DNA from: Pyrinomonadaceae bacterium
GTDB lineage: Bacteria > Acidobacteriota > Blastocatellia > Pyrinomonadales > Pyrinomonadaceae
Length of the DNA: 64,000 nt
Direction: 5' to 3'
Assembly: GCA_025054715.1 (NCBI GenBank)
Contig: JANWYH010000001.1
Location: 246,001 to 310,000 of the forward strand
How positions within the stretch are numbered: the first letter of the stretch is position 1; each line of letters begins with the position of its first letter. Below, one piece after another: positions 25,470 through 37,950 of the stretch. A program made the translations under genes and the position numbers. The notes below the pieces were generated by a model. The model did no database searches, was not told the DNA's origin, and was given only the letters and a program-made list of their open reading frames with translations.

Positions 25470-26132
25470 ATGCCCAAGTTAGACGAAAAGGTTATCGTTA
25501 AAAAAAGAATGGCAATAGCTCGAGCAGCGAAAGAGCTTTTTATAAGGCAGGGGTTTCATGCTACCTCAATGCGCGACATTGCGCGACGTGCAAGAGTGTC
25601 GCTCGGAAATCTCTATAACTACTTTGAGACAAAGGAAAGCATTTTTGAATTTATTATCAATGATTATGTCGAGGTCATAAATGGCAAACTGAAGAATATT
25701 TTAGATCAGATTGACGAACCGCTTGAGCCGAGGAATTTGAGGTTTCTCGGTGATAAGATAGGCGAGCTTGTGAACGAACATTCGGATTTTTGGTTGTTGA
25801 TGTATATTGACGTTCTTGAATTCAGAAATCGTCATTTTCGGAAGATGTTTGATGGGTTGGCAGAAAACTTTCGCCGTAGATTTTCTGATAAATTCGAGGC
25901 GATAAGGCAAAGAGGTGACCTGAGAGTTGGTGTTGATCCAGCTTGCGTGTTCACGGCGGCATATATGCAGTTTTTTAATTACTTTCTTGTTGAAAAACTT
26001 TTCGGTGGCAATCAGCATTTAGGTCTTAGTGATGGACAAGCGCTTAATTTTTTAACAAAACTTTTTTGCTATGGCTCTCTAAGCTCGCAAAAACTTGCGG
26101 AACTGAAAAGGGAATTTATTTTTTCAGGATGA
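25470..26132 (+). CDS. TetR-family transcriptional repressor
   Basis: 220 residues. The N-terminal helix-turn-helix is canonical (AAKELFIRQGFHATSMRDIA, then RRARVSLGNLYNYFETKESIF). The C-terminal ligand-binding half is helical and variable. The gene is flanked by two copies of ACGAACGTTCGT, one over its own promoter and one ahead of the TonB receptor, so it probably represses itself and the downstream lipid cluster. TetR proteins next to acyl-CoA ligases and hydratases often respond to acyl-CoA, which is the likely effector here. The start codon lies 8 nt after the operator, with no strong Shine-Dalgarno. Confidence 0.92.
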   Translation: MPKLDEKVIVKKRMAIARAAKELFIRQGFHATSMRDIARRARVSLGNLYNYFETKESIFEFIINDYVEVINGKLKNILDQIDEPLEPRNLRFLGDKIGELVNEHSDFWLLMYIDVLEFRNRHFRKMFDGLAENFRRRFSDKFEAIRQRGDLRVGVDPACVFTAAYMQFFNYFLVEKLFGGNQHLGLSDGQALNFLTKLFCYGSLSSQKLAELKREFIFSG

Positions 26133-26224: not shown

Positions 26225-29200
26225 ATGCGGGTTATAGGGTTGATTTGTTTGTTATCTTTAATGAGCGTTTTGAGTTTTGCTCAGACGGGGCAAGTCAGCG
26301 GAATAGTAACGGATCAAAACGGGGCTTTTGTTCAGGGAGCTTCCGTGAATTTAACAAGTTCGAGTGCAGGTTGGACGCGCCAAACGGTAACAAATTCCGA
26401 AGGCTTCTATTCGTTTCAACTTGTGCCGCCGGGAAAGTATAAAATTGAGGTTGAAGCGAATGGATTTGAAAATTATGAGGCTGATGTAGTCGTGAACATT
26501 ACCGAAACTACATCTTTGAATGTGCGGCTAAGTGTAAAGGGTAGCAAAGAAGAGGTAGTTGTTACTGCTGAAGCACCGGTTTTACAGACTGAGACATCAC
26601 AGCATGGACGGGTTATTACGGGCGAAACCTTGAGACAGTTACCATTGCCTACGAGAAATTTCCAACAACTTCTTACGCTTTCAGCTGGGGCGCAGAACTC
26701 TTTATCGAACAATACGGAGCTTGGGCGTGGCGATACCGTAATCAGCGTAAATGGACAGCGTACAACTTCTAATTCCGTGAGAATAAACGGAATCGATGCA
26801 AATTCTATAGGAACGAATTCTACACCGAACATTGCCGTTCCGGCGACTGATAGCTTACAAGAGTTTATTGTTCAAACCTCTCTTTATGACGCTTCGAGTG
26901 GAAGAAATTCGGGCGGTAATGTCGAAGCTGTAACAAAAAGTGGAACGAATGAATTTCGAGGCAATTTGTATTATTTCTTGCGTAATAAGTCGCTTAATGC
27001 CAATGATCCGTTTTTGAAAGCTTCTCGGATTGAACGTCCTGTTTTAGATCGACATCAATTCGGAGGGACTTTAGGTGGCAGAATCGTTAGAGACCGAGCC
27101 TTTTTCTTTGTTTCCTATCAAGGCACTAGAGAAAAAAACGGAGCTTCGCTTACAAATAGTCTAACTTTTCCTGTTATTCCAACTGGTTTGACAGATACTA
27201 ATCGCACAGTTACTGGACTGGCGGCTACTTTCGGCGTAAATGCAGCTTTCATAAGTCCAGTTGCTGTTGCTATCTTGAATGCAAGACTTCCAAATGGACG
27301 ATTTGCCATACCCTCTTCATCTGTGCCAAATAGGACTGCATCGCTACTTGGAATTACTCAACCGCAGTCAGGGTTATCGAGATTTCGGGAAAATCAGGCA
27401 AATGTAAATGGTGATTTTAACTTTACCTCTAGACACTCTCTATCGGCAAAGTTTTTCATAGCTGATAATCCCACCTTCCAAGCAAATTACAATTTTGCAG
27501 GACTCGGAAACGGTGTGAATCAACTGATAGGTTTTGGTGGTGACCTCACGATAAAACAAAAGCTATACTCGATTACAGATACATATGTTTTTTCCCCCAG
27601 TCTGGTTAATCAGTTACGTTTTGGATTTAATCGAATTCGTGTGACTAGTTTCCCTGAAGAACCTTTTACAGCTTCGCAATTTGGAATGACAACTCCATTT
27701 GCAAATCTCTATTCGGGTGCGCCAACGCTTTCCTTTAATGGCAGTGACGCACTTTTTGTTTTTGGTTCATCTCCGCTAGCAGATCAGTCTTCGAGAATAA
27801 ATGCTTACAGCATAGCGGATACACTTTCTTGGACTGTAGGTAAGCACAGGGTTCGTTTTGGAGCAGAATTTCGTTTTTCGCAGGTTAAGTTTTATTTTAA
27901 TGCCTTTACTCGCGGTCAAATAATATTCACCGATACGGTAACCATTGTAGGTGGAACACCTGTTGTGACAACTGCGTTTCAGAATTTTCTACAAGGCATT
28001 GGGACTTCACTTCAAGGTTCAGGCGTTTTTGATAGATACTTTAGAGTAAAGGATTTCAGTGGTTTTGTTCAGGATGACTGGAAGGTAACTAAAGATTTGA
28101 CGATAAACATCGGCTTAAGATATGACTTATTCGGACTTCCGGTTGAAGATCAAGGGCGATTAGTAAATTTCCTGCCTGATCAATTACGCATCGGTAGCAC
28201 TACTGCGCCTGCACCGCCGCCGAATGGATTTGTTCAGGCTTCGGGCGGTAAGCTTGCCGGTGTGCCGACAGTTGAGAAAACTCTTGTGCCAGTTGACAAG
28301 AATAATTTTGCGCCAAGAATTGGTTTTGCTTATAGAATCTGGGGAGATGACAATTTAGTTTTACGTGGCGGTTATGGAATCTACTACGATAGGTTCTCGA
28401 CTCGTTACGCAAACACACAGCTTTTTAACTTCCCATATTTTGCTCTTGGTGTAGGTTTGGTAAATTCGCTGGTTGCGCAGCCGAATCCTATCTTCCGTTC
28501 AATATCGAATCCATTCGTGCCTCTTCCATCGCCTTCGCAATTTCCTACGGCTGTGACCGTTCCATCTCCGCTTTCATCTACGGTGCCTGTTGTGGGCGTG
28601 CCGATAGCTGGTATCTTTGTTGATCCAGATTTACAAACTCCTTATGTTCAGCAGTATAGCATTGGCGTTCAGGGGCGTTTTGCAAAAGACTATGTTTTCG
28701 ATATTAGCTATGTTGGAAACCGCGGAACTCATCTTTTGCAAGTTATAACGCTGAATCAGCCTGTTTATAATCCTTCGACGGGGACTTTTACGCCTAGACT
28801 TGCTCCATCGAACGTTCTGTCTGCGAATAAGAATGTAACTGGTGGGATGCAGCAGGTGCAGACGACTTCCGTTTCATCTTACAATTCTTTGCAGATGTCT
28901 TTAAGTCGAAGGTTTGCTAGTGGGCTACAATTTTTAGCAGCATACACCGTTGGTCGTTCGGTTGATTATTATTCAGGTTCGGCAGTTAATGAGCTAACGA
29001 ATATGCCCGGCGATCAATTTAATTGGCGACTCAACCGTGGTTATTCAGACTTTAACCGTAAGCACCGGCTCGTAATTAGTGGTGTTTATGATATGCCTCG
29101 TCTGGTTGGAGATGAAAATCCAGCAAAATGGTTTCTGAATGACTGGCAGGTTGCCGGAATTGCTGTATTTCAGTCTGGCTTGCCTTTTTCGATAATTGAT

Positions 29201-29608
29201 TCAAACGGAACAACAATCATTCAACGTGCTAACTTTAACCCAAGTTTTTCTGGTTCGATCGAAGGCTCTGGAAGCGTTTCAAAAAGGCTCAACCAGTATT
29301 TCAACACGTCGGCTTTTGTAACTTCACGTTCTGGCACGGCGACTTTCGATCCGAACAATCCTTTTGGTAATACTCCAAGAAACTTTCTGTTCGGTCCAGG
29401 ACAGAAGAATATTGATATTTCTTTCATTAAGTTCATCCCGTTTGATGAACGTTTCAAAGGTGAGCTGAGAGTAGAGCTCTTCAATGCTTTTAATTGGGTA
29501 AACTATGCGAATCCGGGCAATCTCATTGGAACGCCGACCTTTGGTCGAATAACTTCGGCAAGCACGGGACCGCGGGTCATTCAGCTTGCATTCAAACTAG
29601 GCTTTTGA
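26225..29608 (+). CDS. Oar-like TonB-dependent outer-membrane receptor
   Basis: 1127 residues from ATG 26225, which has an AAGGAG ribosome-binding site. Order: signal peptide (LICLLSLMSVLSFAQ), carboxypeptidase-regulatory-like beta domain (GQVSGIVTDQNGAFVQGASV ..., about 20-105), plug (VVTAEAP ... RQLPLPTRNFQQLL), then a long beta-barrel rich in aromatic-ended strands. It ends with the typical GPRVIQLAFKLGF, a terminal-Phe barrel signal. This Oar/CarboxypepD_reg architecture is highly expanded in Acidobacteriota. The ligand is unknown, but the TetR control and the downstream fatty-acid genes suggest a lipid or other hydrophobic substrate. The frame upstream of 26225 overlaps tetR and is not coding. 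Confidence 0.9.
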   Translation: MRVIGLICLLSLMSVLSFAQTGQVSGIVTDQNGAFVQGASVNLTSSSAGWTRQTVTNSEGFYSFQLVPPGKYKIEVEANGFENYEADVVVNITETTSLNVRLSVKGSKEEVVVTAEAPVLQTETSQHGRVITGETLRQLPLPTRNFQQLLTLSAGAQNSLSNNTELGRGDTVISVNGQRTTSNSVRINGIDANSIGTNSTPNIAVPATDSLQEFIVQTSLYDASSGRNSGGNVEAVTKSGTNEFRGNLYYFLRNKSLNANDPFLKASRIERPVLDRHQFGGTLGGRIVRDRAFFFVSYQGTREKNGASLTNSLTFPVIPTGLTDTNRTVTGLAATFGVNAAFISPVAVAILNARLPNGRFAIPSSSVPNRTASLLGITQPQSGLSRFRENQANVNGDFNFTSRHSLSAKFFIADNPTFQANYNFAGLGNGVNQLIGFGGDLTIKQKLYSITDTYVFSPSLVNQLRFGFNRIRVTSFPEEPFTASQFGMTTPFANLYSGAPTLSFNGSDALFVFGSSPLADQSSRINAYSIADTLSWTVGKHRVRFGAEFRFSQVKFYFNAFTRGQIIFTDTVTIVGGTPVVTTAFQNFLQGIGTSLQGSGVFDRYFRVKDFSGFVQDDWKVTKDLTINIGLRYDLFGLPVEDQGRLVNFLPDQLRIGSTTAPAPPPNGFVQASGGKLAGVPTVEKTLVPVDKNNFAPRIGFAYRIWGDDNLVLRGGYGIYYDRFSTRYANTQLFNFPYFALGVGLVNSLVAQPNPIFRSISNPFVPLPSPSQFPTAVTVPSPLSSTVPVVGVPIAGIFVDPDLQTPYVQQYSIGVQGRFAKDYVFDISYVGNRGTHLLQVITLNQPVYNPSTGTFTPRLAPSNVLSANKNVTGGMQQVQTTSVSSYNSLQMSLSRRFASGLQFLAAYTVGRSVDYYSGSAVNELTNMPGDQFNWRLNRGYSDFNRKHRLVISGVYDMPRLVGDENPAKWFLNDWQVAGIAVFQSGLPFSIIDSNGTTIIQRANFNPSFSGSIEGSGSVSKRLNQYFNTSAFVTSRSGTATFDPNNPFGNTPRNFLFGPGQKNIDISFIKFIPFDERFKGELRVELFNAFNWVNYANPGNLIGTPTFGRITSASTGPRVIQLAFKLGF

Positions 29609-29656: not shown

Positions 29657-30646
29657 ATGAAAAGAGCAAAGCTAATAGGAACAGGAATTGCCGTTCCTGA
29701 AAGAGTTTTAACAAACGATGAGTTGAGTCGAATTTTAGGCGAGGACATAAATGATTTTGTTTTGAACACGCTTGGGATTTCTGAAAGGCGCATTCTGAAC
29801 GAGAATGAAAGTGTATCTGATATTGCTAGTGAGGCTTCTAAAAATGCTTTGGAAAACGCAGGATTAGATGCAACTGAGCTTGATCTGATAATTTTAGCAA
29901 CCGACACGCCTGAATATATTTCACCTGCAACATCCGTAGTCGTTCAGCATCGAATAGGAGCCGTAAATGCTGGAACATTTGACGTAAATTGCGCTTGCGC
30001 TGGGTTCGTTACGGCTTTTGACATGGCTTGTAAATACATTGCTGCAGACAGCAAATACAGAAATGTTCTCGTCATAGGCGCTTATGCTATGAGTAAATTT
30101 GTTGATTGGAAAGAGAAAAAAACGGCTACAATCTTTGCTGATGGAGCAGGTGCGGTCATTCTCCAGGCTGCGGAAGAAGATGTAGGACTTTTGGCTTCGA
30201 GGCTTCGTGCTGACGGCAGCTATCATGATTTTCTTGGAGTTTTTGCCGGTGGAACGAAATATCCGATTGATGAAAAGGAATTAAGAGAAGGCTATAGAAC
30301 AAAGGTGCGTTTTGCGAAAAAATATCCGCCCGAAGTGAATATAGTGGGCTGGCAGGAAATTGTTGCAGAAGTTCTAAATGATGCCTGTCTTACGAAAGAT
30401 ATGATCAAGCTGTTTCTTTGGACGCAGGTAAATCTTTCAACAATAAAAACTGTAATGAGCGAGATGAATTTACCGATGGAGCGAACTCACACGGTTATGC
30501 AGAAGTGGGGATATACTGGTTCGGCCTGCATACCGATGGCTTTGCATGATGCTATTCAGGCGGGCAAAATTGTTCGAGGTGATAATATCTTGATGTGTGC
30601 CTCAGGTGGTGGGTTGAACATGGCAGCGGTAGTTTTTAGATTCTAG
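29657..30646 (+). CDS. Atypical ketoacyl-ACP synthase III-like enzyme
   Basis: 329 residues of the FabH (KASIII) thiolase fold. The nucleophile Cys is in place (NCACAGF, about 112), and FADGAGAVIL and ASGGG loops are normal. The other two catalytic residues are changed: the PHQAN histidine is threonine (WTQVN, about 250), and the GNTSAA asparagine is tyrosine (WGYTGSAC, about 282). Decarboxylative condensation is therefore unlikely; acyl transfer or a non-decarboxylating reaction is more plausible. The start is ATG 29657 (MKRAKLIGTGIAVPE). Next comes an acyl-CoA ligase 8 nt later, so it probably uses activated acyl chains. Confidence 0.85.
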   Translation: MKRAKLIGTGIAVPERVLTNDELSRILGEDINDFVLNTLGISERRILNENESVSDIASEASKNALENAGLDATELDLIILATDTPEYISPATSVVVQHRIGAVNAGTFDVNCACAGFVTAFDMACKYIAADSKYRNVLVIGAYAMSKFVDWKEKKTATIFADGAGAVILQAAEEDVGLLASRLRADGSYHDFLGVFAGGTKYPIDEKELREGYRTKVRFAKKYPPEVNIVGWQEIVAEVLNDACLTKDMIKLFLWTQVNLSTIKTVMSEMNLPMERTHTVMQKWGYTGSACIPMALHDAIQAGKIVRGDNILMCASGGGLNMAAVVFRF

Positions 30647-30654
30647 CTTTTCTT

Positions 30655-32307
30655 ATGAGTCTTGCAGGAAACATTTATAGCTTATTTCGCACTCAAACTG
30701 CAAAGTATTCTGAAGAAGCAGTATTTTATCGCCGTAAGGATAACTACTGGAAAGAGCAGACATGGGCTGAATTCGAAGAGCAGGTTCACAGCTTTGCCTG
30801 TGCACTCTTGGCTTGTGGGCTTACAAAAGGTACTTCTTTGGCTATTCTGGCTGGGAACATTCCAGAGTGGACGATTGTTGACATTGCAACGATTGCTGCA
30901 GGTGGAGTTGGCGTAGGCATCTATCCGACTAGCTCTCGAGAGCAAGTAGAGTATATCGTTAACCACTCTGACGCTCAGTTTGCTTTTGTTGACAGCGCAG
31001 AGCAATTTGAAAAGCTCATTAGTGCAAATTGCCCCAAGCTTAAGAGAATAGTCACTTTAGAGCGAATCGAAAGCTCAAAAGCCGTATTCTTTGAGGATTT
31101 TCTTTCATTTGGTAGATCATATCTTAAAGAGCTTTTGTCGGAAGTAGAGCGCATAGGCTATGAAGCAAAGCCTGAGGACATAGCAATAATGGTTTACACT
31201 TCAGGAACGACCGGTAAGCCCAAAGGAGCGATGCTTTCACATCGTTATGTGCTTAATTCTGTTGAATCTTTAAGGCTTTCGGTTCCGATTTTTCACAACG
31301 ACGTTACGCTTTCATATCTGCCGGCTTGTCATGTTGCTGAGAGAATCTCTGGCATATACAATCGTCTTTACAACGGCACAGCGGCTTATTTTGTTGATGA
31401 CGTTTCAAAGCTTTATGAATACATGCTTGAAATAAAGCCTACCGTTTTTGCTTCATTGCCGAGATTTTTTGAGAAAATTTACGCTCGAATCATTTCAGAG
31501 CACGGCGTAAAACCAGACCCAAAAACGGTAAGAGACGCTTTCGGTGGAAGAATAAGATTGCTTACATCTGGCGGAGCGCCTTTGCCTTTGGAGGTAGCAG
31601 AATTTTTTGCTTCTGCCGGACTTCCAATTTTGCAGGCTTATGGGCTTACGGAAAACGTGTGCGTTGCTTTTAATACTTTTGAGAGCTACAAAATCGGAAC
31701 AGTCGGAAAGCCCATGCCGATGTGTCAGGTGAAAATAGCACCTGATGGAGAAATTCTTGTCAAGAGTGAAATGATGTTTTCAGGTTACTACAAAGACCCA
31801 CATAAGACTAAAGAAATGTTCGATGAAGAAGGCTGGCTTAAAACCGGAGACATAGGAGAGATAGACGAAGATGGCTTTTTGAAGGTAACTGGTAGAAAAA
31901 AAGAGATTATAGTTTTGTCAACTGGTAAAAAGGTTGCTCCGCTATTTATTGAAAGTGCTGTCAAAGAAAATCATCTTGTAAGCCAATGCTTTCTTTACGG
32001 TGACGGACGAAGTTATTGCGTTGCATTAGTTACACTCAACGAAAACGAGGCTAAACTCTTCGCGGGGTCAAAAAATACAAACCTTGATGAGCTTACAAAA
32101 AATGAGGGCATTCTGAATTCGATACGGCGAACAATCGAACAAGTAAACAGTCGTGTCTCTTCTTCCGAGCAGATAAAGAAGTTTTTGATTTTGCCAAGGG
32201 ATTTTTCTATTGACTTAGGTGAAATCACTCCGACAATGAAGCTAAGACGCGAAGTCATAGCAGAAAACTTCAAAAGGGAGATAGAAAAGCTTTATGAATC
32301 GTCGTAG
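30655..32307 (+). CDS. Long-chain acyl-CoA synthetase
   Basis: 550 residues of the ANL superfamily, FadD15/FAA1-like. The P-loop YTSGTTGKPKGAML (about 182), AYGLTEN, and GWLKTGDIGEIDEDGFLKVTGRKKE (in pieces about 396-420) are intact, so it should adenylate a fatty acid and form its CoA thioester. The C-terminal sub-domain keeps a lysine-rich loop. It is encoded 8 nt after the atypical KASIII and overlaps the hydrolase by 14 nt. Chain-length preference cannot be read from sequence. Confidence 0.92.
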   Translation: MSLAGNIYSLFRTQTAKYSEEAVFYRRKDNYWKEQTWAEFEEQVHSFACALLACGLTKGTSLAILAGNIPEWTIVDIATIAAGGVGVGIYPTSSREQVEYIVNHSDAQFAFVDSAEQFEKLISANCPKLKRIVTLERIESSKAVFFEDFLSFGRSYLKELLSEVERIGYEAKPEDIAIMVYTSGTTGKPKGAMLSHRYVLNSVESLRLSVPIFHNDVTLSYLPACHVAERISGIYNRLYNGTAAYFVDDVSKLYEYMLEIKPTVFASLPRFFEKIYARIISEHGVKPDPKTVRDAFGGRIRLLTSGGAPLPLEVAEFFASAGLPILQAYGLTENVCVAFNTFESYKIGTVGKPMPMCQVKIAPDGEILVKSEMMFSGYYKDPHKTKEMFDEEGWLKTGDIGEIDEDGFLKVTGRKKEIIVLSTGKKVAPLFIESAVKENHLVSQCFLYGDGRSYCVALVTLNENEAKLFAGSKNTNLDELTKNEGILNSIRRTIEQVNSRVSSSEQIKKFLILPRDFSIDLGEITPTMKLRREVIAENFKREIEKLYESS

Positions 32308-33160
32308 AGTAAAAGGCTTCGTTTTAATAATTTTTCTTGCTTTCTGCCTAAACGCTTTTGGGCAGTTGCAAGAAAAGTTTGTGACAATTTTCGGCGCGAA
32401 GATTCGGTATATTGAAGCTGGCGAGAATAATCAACAAAAAGTTATTTTGCTTCATGGGCTTGGTTCAAGTGCCGAAGCTTGGCAAATGAATGTTAGACGA
32501 TTATCCGAGAAGTTTCATGTGTTTATTCCTGATCAGGTTGGTTTCGGCAAGTCTGACAAGCCTTTTTTGAAGTATCGTGTGGCAACTTATGTTGATTTTC
32601 TCGATAAATTCATGTCTGAACTTAAGATTGAGAAAGCTCATATTATCGGAAATTCGATGGGTGGTTGGATTGCGGCGTTAATGGCTTTGAAATATCCTGA
32701 CAAGGTTGAAAAGCTTGTTTTAGTGGCTCCCGCAGGACTTCTACCAGAGCGGATAGATGAAATGCGAGTTTATCAGCTTAATAATTCAACTCGCGACGAG
32801 ATACGCGATAACATGAAGCGCATCTTTGCTAGTCCGCTTTTGCAAAACAACGAAGCTCTAGTAGATCAGTTTCTCACGCAAAGAGTCTTGTTTAATGATG
32901 GCTACACGATTTCAAGTCTTATTGAATCAATTCGTCGCAAAGAGGATTTTCTAAACGGGAAGCTGAATCAAATTAAAAAGCAGACTCTGATAATTTGGGG
33001 AAGACAAGATGGTCTTCTGCCGGTAAGCGATGCTTACGTTTTTAATAAAGAAATCGCTTCGTCAAAGCTTGTAATTTTCGATAACTGCGGGCATGTTCCG
33101 CAGCTTGAAAAAGCAGAGGATTTTAATCGGTTGGTCGAAGAGTTTTTAATTTCAAAGTGA
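32294..33160 (+). CDS. Exported alpha/beta-hydrolase
   Basis: 288 residues. A hydrophobic N-terminus (VLIIFLAFCLNAFGQ) looks like a signal peptide, so the enzyme probably acts in the periplasm. Oxyanion loop LLHGLGSS, nucleophile elbow GNSMGGW (about 118), acid around WGRQDGLLP and the catalytic His in DNCGHVPQLEKAE (about 270) form a complete triad. The family covers esterases, lipases and haloperoxidase-like enzymes. Its start overlaps the ligase end. It may release fatty acids from lipids taken up through the TonB receptor, for activation by the ligase. Confidence 0.88.
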   Translation: MNRRRVKGFVLIIFLAFCLNAFGQLQEKFVTIFGAKIRYIEAGENNQQKVILLHGLGSSAEAWQMNVRRLSEKFHVFIPDQVGFGKSDKPFLKYRVATYVDFLDKFMSELKIEKAHIIGNSMGGWIAALMALKYPDKVEKLVLVAPAGLLPERIDEMRVYQLNNSTRDEIRDNMKRIFASPLLQNNEALVDQFLTQRVLFNDGYTISSLIESIRRKEDFLNGKLNQIKKQTLIIWGRQDGLLPVSDAYVFNKEIASSKLVIFDNCGHVPQLEKAEDFNRLVEEFLISK

Positions 33161-33170
33161 GGCTTTCAAG

Positions 33171-33566
33171 ATGAAGTTGAAAATCGGAGACAAGTTTTCG
33201 AGACAGAAGAAAATTTCCGATGATGTGATTAGGAAATTTGCTGAGTTTTCAGGTGATTATAACCCGATTCATCTTGACGAAGAATTTGCCCGAAAAACTC
33301 GCTTCGGAAGGCGAATTGCCCATGGCATGATTACAGGTGCTTTAATTTCTGCCGTATTGGGAGATGAGCTTTCTGAAAAGAGTGTAGTTTATCTTTCTCA
33401 GACTCTTAACTTCGTTAAACCTGTTTTTGTTGACGACATTGTAACCGTGACTGCGACTGTGACAGATATTCGAGAAGATAAGCCAATAGTTACTCTGGAA
33501 ACTATTTGCACAAATCAAAGTGGCGAGATCGTAGTAACTGGTCAAGCAAAAATAATGGTTCTTTAG
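33171..33566 (+). CDS. MaoC-like (R)-specific enoyl-CoA hydratase
   Basis: 131 residues of the MaoC hotdog family. The hydratase signature is complete: SGDYNPIHLDEEFA with the catalytic Asp and His, then RFGRRIAHGM. Small single-domain members (PhaJ type) hydrate trans-2-enoyl-CoA to (R)-3-hydroxyacyl-CoA. It follows the alpha/beta-hydrolase by 10 nt, within the TetR-linked lipid cluster. Confidence 0.9.
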   Translation: MKLKIGDKFSRQKKISDDVIRKFAEFSGDYNPIHLDEEFARKTRFGRRIAHGMITGALISAVLGDELSEKSVVYLSQTLNFVKPVFVDDIVTVTATVTDIREDKPIVTLETICTNQSGEIVVTGQAKIMVL

Positions 33567-33579
33567 CGAGAAGAAGGAA

Positions 33580-34808
33580 ATGCTGAAACAAGAAAATAGC
33601 TGGTATGCATGGTACGTTCTTTTTTTGCTGACTTTTGTTTATGTGCTCAATTTTGTTGATCGCACGATAATTCTTTACTTATTTCCCCTTATCAAAAGGG
33701 AATTCACTTTTACGGATTTGCAGCTTTCACTTCTCGGCACAACGGCATTTGTCATATTTTACACGACACTTGGAATTTTTTTCGGTAGGTTAGCTGATAG
33801 AACTTCAAGGGTGCGAATAATAGCTTTTGGTCTGGCTTTGTGGAGTTTATTTACTGGTTTGACCGGCTTTGCTTGGGATTTTTGGAGTATTTTTTTCTGT
33901 CGCGTAATGGTTGGTATTGGAGAGGCGACTTTAGGGCCTGCTGCGATTTCTTTGCTTGCCGATTATTTTCCGCCATCGAAAAGGGCAACTGTAACTAGCA
34001 TCTATTCGATGGGAATTGCCTTGGGAGCTGGCTTTGCAGCATTTTTTGGTGGTTTGATTGGTGAAGTTTATGGTTGGAGAGCCGCATTTTACCTTCTGGG
34101 ATTTCCGGGTGTTTTAGTCGCAATTTTTGTGTATCTAATTCGTGAGCCCACAAGAACTTCCGATAGCAGCGTGATTCATCATTCTTCAAATAATTGGCGA
34201 GCTCTGGTTACAAATAAAGCCTTTATTTTGCTTTGCTTAGGATATGCTTTTTTAGGTCTTGCAACTAACAATCTTTCCATTTGGGGGGCAACCTTTTACA
34301 ATCGGCTTCATGGGTTTGATCTAAAGACAATAGGATTTTGGGGTGGTTTATTGACGCTTCTCGGCGGAATACCCGCAACAATTTTCGGTGGACAAATAGC
34401 AGATTTTTTTAGGCAAAGAGTAAAAGGAGGGAGAATGCTTTATGGCAGTTTAGTTTGTCTTCTTTGTGTGCCGTTTTGGATTTTGTGGCTTACAACTGAT
34501 GAGCCTTTTTTGATTTTGCTTGCAAACGGAGTTTTGCTTTTTTTGTCGCTTTCGTGGTTAGGTGCGGCGGCAGCGGATGCAACGGAAATCGCTGGTTCTA
34601 ATCTTCGAGGTCTTGCTACGGCTATTTACTTTTTCAGCGTTAATATAGCCGCTTATCTTGTAGGTTCTAACCTGATAGGCTATTTGAGCGATCTTTTAGG
34701 CGCGACGGACAATCCGGGGATGATGCGATATTCTCTTGCTGTTTGCCCTATCTCATGTCTTTTAGGTGCGACTTGCCTGTGGTTAGGCAGTCAGTTGATA
34801 CAAAAAAA

Positions 34809-34821
<13 letters not shown>
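33580..34821 (+). CDS. Spinster-like MFS transporter
   Basis: 413 residues with 12 predicted membrane helices. The first loop GRLADRTSR and the segment GIGEATLGPAAISLLADYFP and KRATVTSIYSMGIALG match the Spinster branch of the major facilitator superfamily. Its animal members carry lysophospholipids or sphingolipids, and bacterial ones are poorly known. Placement at the end of a fatty-acid gene run supports a lipid-like cargo. The last 13 nt of the gene, including its TAG stop, overlap the 3' end of the oppositely oriented tRNA-Val. Confidence 0.88.
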
Positions 34822-36987: not shown

Positions 36988-37950
36988 CTACCATTCTAAC
37001 ACAATAGCTGCTGACACAAGTCCAGCACCGACAGCCGTTAAAAGTAGTTTGAATCCCGGTTTTAATAGGTTTTGTTGATAGGCAAGATCAAGAGCTATCG
37101 GTATTGTAGCAGCTGAGCTATTTCCATAGTTTTCCAAGATACAGACGGTTCGTTCAGGTGGTATGCCTAAAAAGCGGCCGGTTTCTTGAATTATTCTTTT
37201 GTTTGCTTGATGAGGAATCCAAAGGTCTATCTGCGAAATGTTTATGCCTGCTGACTCAACGGCTTTCTTACTTGCGTAAGTCATCATTCGAACCGCTTGA
37301 CGGAAAAGTTCCAGACCGCTTTGCATTTGCATAAAGTGCAATCCCTGCCGAATTGCTTCTGTTGATATAGGATTACGGCTGCCGCCTGCTTTTATCAAAA
37401 TTTTGTCGTAGCGACTTCCATCAGCTCCTAGATAAGTACCCAAAAAGCTTTCTCCTGGAGTTAAAACTACGGCACCGGCGCCGTCAGCAAAAAGCGTTAC
37501 GGTTGAAGGATCATTCGGATTGGTGCGTTTTGATAGAACATTTGAGGCAATTACTAAAATGGGTTCATTCAGCCATTTTCCATAAGCTTCTCCCATAGCT
37601 AACGCATAAAGAAAGCCTGCACAGGCGGCGGCTAAATCAAATGCTCCGGCATGTTTTAATCCGAGGCGGTAGGCTACCTCCGGTGCAGTAGGAGGCAGTG
37701 GGTAATCTGGTGTGCTGGTTGCCAGTATGAGTAGCTTGATGTCTTCAGGATCAAGACCAGCATCATTGATTGCTTTTTGACCTGCTTTCACAGCAAGGTC
37801 TGAGGTTGCTTCTTCTGGTGAAGCACATGGACGGAAGCGAACACCAGTTCTTCTTAAAGCCCAACCATGCTCCAATCCGAGAAGCTGCTCGGTTTGTTCA
37901 TTTGATATAAACTTTTCTGGAATAGCTGAGCCGATTCCTTTAATTTTCAT
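36988..37950 (-). CDS. bioZ: BioZ-type ketoacyl-ACP synthase III
   Basis: 320 residues of the KASIII fold with an intact Cys-His-Asn triad: AACAGF (about 110), IPHQANKRII (about 250) and NYGNSSAATIP (about 279). Housekeeping FabH fits the sequence equally well, but its position inside the biotin operon, overlapping bioF by 11 nt and preceding bioA by 6 nt, points to BioZ. BioZ makes a pimeloyl-ACP precursor by extending glutaryl-CoA, known from Agrobacterium and relatives. No bioC or bioH is nearby, consistent with a BioZ route. Compared with the atypical KASIII at 29657, this one is catalytically complete. Confidence 0.8.
   Translation of the reverse strand: MKIKGIGSAIPEKFISNEQTEQLLGLEHGWALRRTGVRFRPCASPEEATSDLAVKAGQKAINDAGLDPEDIKLLILATSTPDYPLPPTAPEVAYRLGLKHAGAFDLAAACAGFLYALAMGEAYGKWLNEPILVIASNVLSKRTNPNDPSTVTLFADGAGAVVLTPGESFLGTYLGADGSRYDKILIKAGGSRNPISTEAIRQGLHFMQMQSGLELFRQAVRMMTYASKKAVESAGINISQIDLWIPHQANKRIIQETGRFLGIPPERTVCILENYGNSSAATIPIALDLAYQQNLLKPGFKLLLTAVGAGLVSAAIVLEW

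Follow-up and report, generated by a model that had tools for sequence, protein, structure and literature searches.

A KASIII-like clade with replaced catalytic residues, encoded in operons that look catabolic

The window, by which we mean the whole 64,000-nucleotide stretch of DNA that was analysed, encodes at positions 29657 to 30646 of the plus strand a KASIII-like protein that has kept the nucleophilic cysteine of its family and replaced the other two catalytic residues. It is best assigned to a new clade within the KASIII branch, the C-D-T-Y-S clade. We tentatively favour the reading that this protein is a non-condensing, cysteine-dependent acyl transferase built on the KASIII scaffold, and that its operon serves the uptake and breakdown of oligomers or monomers of (R)-3-hydroxyacids derived from polyesters such as poly(3-hydroxybutyrate) (PHB). 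The translated frame is open over 329 codons, with no stop, and the 329-residue product matches both Pfam domains, ACP_syn_III and ACP_syn_III_C. AlphaFold2, run with 52 clade sequences, predicted a complete KASIII fold (pLDDT 94.9) that superposes on FabH and BioZ with Z scores of 46–48 over more than 300 residues, at an rmsd of about 1.5 Å.

To map the catalytic residues, we aligned the protein with Escherichia coli FabH, whose reference sequence was checked against PDB 1hn9, and with 22 KASIII paralogues from related genomes. FabH C112 corresponds to C114 (codon at 29996–29998), H244 to T256 (30422–30424) and N274 to Y286 (30512–30514), whereas the 22 paralogues retain Cys-His-Asn. An earlier note on this DNA had read the nucleophile as retained, His as changed to Thr and Asn as changed to Tyr, and all three readings held, with Cys114, Thr256 and Tyr286 each found in 101 of 101 sequences of the wider aligned set. 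Its pairing of GNTSAA with YTGSAC was shifted by one residue, as GNTSAAS aligns with GYTGSAC, although the Asn to Tyr replacement was correctly called. Thr256 and Tyr286 align without gaps to His244 and Asn274, and should therefore point towards the active cysteine. Further clade-specific invariants, which the earlier note had not listed, are D83 (FabH T81; codon at 29903–29905), S89 (F87), F219 (M207), C291 (S279; 30527–30529) and S316 (F304; 30602–30604), of which Asp83, Cys291 and Ser316 are invariant or nearly so in the clade alignments. We found no compensating His or Asn at a displaced position in the alignments or the clade sequences, which the earlier note had named as the observation that would count against it. 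His278, the only near-invariant extra histidine in the clade, corresponds to FabH V266 and is replaced by Pro in locus L085 and by Phe in L194; it was therefore rejected as a displaced catalytic His. The loss of His and Asn nevertheless seems to be partly compensated, as Asp83 falls, in the alignment, where HMG-CoA synthases drawn from Thorarchaeota and Myxococcota genomes have their catalytic Glu, a residue whose role is well established. A second likeness to these synthases, their GNxYTGS motif, was discarded, as its Tyr comes after a retained Asn and so occupies a different position in the alignment from Tyr286.

Orthologues with 46–79% identity are found across the class. Scanning GTDB genomes yielded 468 encoded relatives, the best 80 of which came from Blastocatellia, Gemmatimonadota, Myxococcota (including Myxococcus xanthus), Chloroflexi, Marinimicrobia and several Thorarchaeota assemblies. 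These 80 are the closest relatives, retrieved with a pair of conserved peptides. One of the pair, MxKWGYTG, includes Tyr286; the second peptide and a phylum-wide profile search are independent of that residue. The profile search uncovered a distant sub-clade in other Acidobacteriota (40–47% identity) with the same C/D/T/Y/S residues. Below it, every homologue checked was Cys-x-His-Asn-Phe, and none of them was an intermediate between the two patterns. The C/D/T/Y/S residues were kept in all clade rows, this divergent sub-clade included, and a maximum-likelihood tree placed all such rows on a single branch with a support of 100/100, corresponding to one change. Because these residues are common to every member examined, the alignments indicate that the replacement is a fixed re-modelling and not decay. 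Many clade members come from metagenome assemblies, and isolates of Myxococcus, Pyxidicoccus, Hyalangium, Minicystis and Pyrinomonas are also included. One copy, in the Pyrinomonadaceae MAG CAN_BIN16 (L032:3819-4805), has a stop codon within the matched stretch, reflecting either a sequencing error or a pseudogene. In the draft genome of M. xanthus AM003 (G060), a search with the KASIII-like protein found no second close KASIII, the next-best match having only 26% identity.

The protein passed the broad PRK09352 'beta-ketoacyl-ACP synthase 3' model (268 against a cut-off of 249 bits) and failed the NCBIfam fabH model TIGR00747 (237.5 against 292.1 bits). Because it lacks two defining catalytic residues and falls below this cut-off, it should not be classified as FabH. 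It shares with FabH the fold, the length, the nucleophilic Cys at a helix start, the Gly-rich C-terminal loop and the Gln and Asn that follow the His position. It differs in five replacements (His to Thr, Asn to Tyr, Thr81 to Asp, Phe304 to Ser and Phe87 to Ser), in the loss of Arg36-Thr37, which contact CoA or ACP, and in the setting of its gene, which lies in a catabolic operon and not among genes of fatty-acid synthesis. We consider it highly improbable that this is an ordinary condensing KASIII able to work with Thr and Tyr where others have His and Asn: the full fold and the PRK09352 score would fit, but the fabH model failed, the genome retains a canonical Cys-His-Asn FabH elsewhere (G000:C20) and the clade is present in Thorarchaeota. 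These are archaea, in which, to our knowledge, type II fatty-acid synthesis is not expected.

Other known branches of the family fitted no better. The HMG-CoA synthase models scored 43.7 against 360 bits (TIGR01835) and 38.8 against 353 bits (TIGR00748), and of the Cys-His-Glu triad of these enzymes only Cys is present, with Thr for His and Asp for Glu. The OleA model PRK09258 reached 97.5 of the required 285 bits, and an OleABCD-type reading of the ligase, KASIII and hydrolase genes was set aside given this score and the FadD-like character of the ligase. The Cys-His dyad of PqsC, which works without Asn, is missing its His. CerJ and ChlB3 have His at the FabH Asn position, followed by Asp, and Tyr286 stands there instead. 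The invariant Cys114 departs from a PqsB-like pseudo-subunit devoid of catalytic residues. By residues or scores, the protein thus appears to be none of HMG-CoA synthase, OleA, PqsC, PqsB or CerJ. That it is a non-catalytic partner or scaffold, standing to another protein as PqsB does to PqsC, is barely credible: the standard triad is broken, but Cys114 and its helix are invariant, in contrast to PqsB, in which neither a triad nor a dyad can be identified (PMC4807248), and the gene is usually the only KASIII in its operon. PHROGs yielded no match, and the literature that we searched contained no description of the C-D-T-Y-S clade.

The KASIII-like gene is the third of a putative operon of seven genes, all on the plus strand. 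It is preceded by genes for a TetR regulator (25470–26132), which is also found upstream in related loci, and an Oar-like TonB-dependent outer-membrane receptor (26225–29608, with the start taken at MRVIGLI inside a longer frame). It is followed, 8 bp downstream, by an AMP-forming acyl-CoA ligase with an AMP-binding_C_3 domain (30655–32307), and then by an alpha/beta-hydrolase that is a putative exported esterase, its N terminus resembling a signal peptide by eye (32294–33160), a MaoC hydratase (33171–33566) and, as the final gene, an MFS transporter (33580–34821). From the receptor onward, the gaps are 48, 8, −14, 10 and 13 bp. The MaoC protein is of the PhaJ type, its best PDB match being the (R)-specific enoyl-CoA hydratase 1iq6 (1.1e-29), and the ligase resembles long-chain FadD enzymes most closely.

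In related loci, the KASIII-like gene is constantly accompanied by the ligase and by one or two hydrolases. The earlier note had picked out the adjoining ligase as a partner, and a ligase homologue was indeed present in 20/20 Blastocatellia clade loci but in only 1/20 neighbourhoods of FabH in those genomes. Hydrolases (16/20), TetR (13/20) and MaoC (10/20) were likewise frequent in the clade loci and found in 0/20 FabH neighbourhoods each; as the neighbour families were selected for their recurrence in loci of the clade itself, these counts show the strength of the association and are not proof of it. In relatives, a cytoplasmic hydrolase usually lies directly upstream of the KASIII-like gene; it is absent from the window genome. 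Import systems vary by lineage, comprising TonB with MFS, TonB with SSF, or a LIV-type ABC transporter with a periplasmic binding protein. In the sub-clade of other Acidobacteriota (L209–L219), the gene lies beside ligase, hydrolase and TonB genes or beside LIV ABC genes, and L212 has an additional SDR and a thiolase. The suggestion in the earlier note that the enzyme may join acyl groups to an unknown acceptor implied biosynthesis; the surroundings, with their TonB receptor, importers, exported hydrolase, PhaJ-like hydratase and polyhydroxyalkanoate (PHA) depolymerases, look catabolic instead.

The link to polyesters comes from these depolymerases and from the PhaJ-like hydratase. In Blastocatellia and Myxococcota loci, a neighbour of secreted-lipase type has the PHB depolymerase PhaZ7 as its best solved match (1e-17 and 8e-20) and as its only NCBIfam match, at 94–102 bits, below the equivalog cut-off of 450. 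In Gemmatimonadota, a neighbour passes the NCBI cut-off for type-1 extracellular scl-PHA depolymerases (285 and 290 against 150 bits), so that two unrelated PHA depolymerase families recur beside the clade. Among 60 related genomes, PhaZ7-like genes were found in 11/26 with the clade and 1/34 without it (Fisher p=0.0002, not corrected for ancestry), and 7 of the 11 lay no more than about 3 kb from the KASIII-like gene. Some loci also have PhaC-like alpha/beta-hydrolases nearby. The loci of Thorarchaeota and of sub-clade 2 showed no neighbouring depolymerase. The window genome has neither a PhaZ7-like gene nor a PhaC_N match, and so, if the polyester reading is right, it would scavenge oligomers or monomers freed by others.

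The same acyl-transfer chemistry might act on another substrate, such as the fatty acids of glycerides, plant polyesters (cutin or suberin) or hydroxycinnamate esters. The resemblance of the ligase to FadD types, the inclusion of feruloyl and acetylxylan esterases in PF10503, and one Chloroflexi locus with an enoyl-CoA hydratase and two ligases would be consistent with this. We nevertheless regard it as rather doubtful, because the two depolymerase families recur together with the PhaJ-like hydratase and because importers for small acids would be odd for fatty acids. The view that the MFS and LIV importers serve feruloyl or other aromatic acids was likewise judged weaker than the PHA reading, given the depolymerase neighbours and their scores.

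For the favoured polyester reading, we infer the substrate, direction and chemistry of the enzyme as follows. Depolymerases, whether the organism's own or those of other microbes, would free oligoesters, which the TonB receptor and the exported hydrolase would admit and trim; the inner-membrane transporter would import the products and the ligase would convert the imported acids to CoA thioesters. The KASIII-like enzyme would then form an acyl-S-Cys114 intermediate and move the acyl group between an oxygen ester and CoA. The net step would be thiolysis of the oligoester-CoA made by the ligase, saving one ATP per bond, and the PhaJ-like hydratase would channel (R)-3-hydroxyacyl-CoA into beta-oxidation. 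Asp83, with Tyr286, may act as acid/base and hydrogen-bond donors, replacing the His/Asn pair that stabilizes the enolate. In enzymes of the FabH family, acylation of the cysteine comes first; His and Asn act later, in decarboxylation and condensation (PMC4807248). PqsC without its His is acylated at wild-type speed (PMC4807248), and a Cys that has lost His and Asn would therefore fit acyl transfer. Decarboxylative condensation, which the earlier note had also disfavoured, is unlikely because the loss of His and Asn is fixed in the clade. We propose thiolysis of oligo-hydroxyacyl-CoA esters on the basis of the ligase and the polyester context; enzyme-catalysed thiolysis of PHB by CoA has precedent in unrelated enzymes (PMC3430594). 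A broader proposal, which we offer as speculation and think fairly improbable, is that the clade consists of Cys-Asp-Tyr enzymes of the thiolase superfamily that thiolyse oligo(3-hydroxyacyl)-CoA esters and supply the missing intracellular step of ATP-saving polyester scavenging in bacteria and Thorarchaeota.

The main alternative is that the enzyme makes or breaks C–C bonds, which is possible though unlikely. Asp83 would then act like the HMG-CoA synthase Glu, deprotonating an acyl-Cys or performing the reverse, with Tyr286 and Thr256 holding the oxyanion, in an aldol/retro-aldol or thiolase-like step that degrades a beta-oxygenated acyl-CoA. The alignment of Asp83 with that Glu, its invariance in the clade rows and a catabolic context with acyl-CoA intermediates are all compatible with this, and an Asp at this position could serve C–C chemistry just as well. 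However, HMG-CoA synthase, OleA and PqsC need their His for the condensation step, and this KASIII-like protein has neither His nor Asn. The HMG-CoA synthase family scores are, moreover, all far under the cut-off, and since at least one related locus has a separate thiolase, the KASIII-like protein need not be one.

Genes of this clade pass the general 'beta-ketoacyl-ACP synthase 3' model, and that name would imply fatty-acid synthesis although their conserved catalytic residues are different ones and their setting is catabolic, in Thorarchaeota as well. If the acyl-transfer reading is right, the clade would bring new chemistry to the KASIII fold, its operon would be a polyester-degradation system spread across at least three bacterial phyla and useful for work on the turnover of PHB bioplastic, and the five-residue C-D-T-Y-S signature could serve to re-annotate many such genes. 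Full-text literature searches for the use of PHB involving a KASIII gene, and for a KASIII lacking His, returned nothing relevant.

Among known enzymes, HMG-CoA synthase shares the nucleophilic Cys and an acidic residue at one alignment position, and differs in having His, Asn and Glu where the KASIII-like protein lacks the first two and has Asp for the third. PqsC of PqsBC is FabH-like and also lacks the catalytic Asn, but has His and forms a C–C bond, whereas both residues are replaced here. The proposed overall reaction (oligoester plus CoA to hydroxyacyl-CoA) can be likened to thiolysis by the Ralstonia PHA synthase and PHB depolymerase, but in this respect only, as those are unrelated enzymes of the alpha/beta-hydrolase fold. 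CerJ and ChlB3, which have a KASIII fold with Cys, offer an analogy for the proposed chemistry, as they perform acyl transfer without condensation; they do so with a Cys-His-Asp set whose His stands at the FabH Asn position (PMC9573744), where the C-D-T-Y-S clade has Tyr. Another KASIII-like family adjoins a ligase in Thorarchaeota (L078:281-1324, minus strand, and other Thorarchaeota loci; also L101:11597-12640). Where FabH has His, this family has a hydrophobic residue, and where FabH has Asn, it has His (GHMGQND), an arrangement that recalls CerJ; in the L101 copy, Ser takes the place of Cys. The top structural match of the predicted model was BioZ, a 3-oxopimeloyl-ACP synthase (Z of 47.8, 324 residues, 29% identity), tied with FabH; BioZ-type proteins retain Cys-His-Asn, unlike the protein studied here. 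The window has a second KASIII-like gene (36988–37950, minus strand), located between bioF and bioA in a bioB-bioF-KASIII-bioA-bioD set. Its product retains Cys-His-Asn and is probably an enzyme of the BioZ type, with a PRK05963 score of 360 bits against a cut-off of 437.
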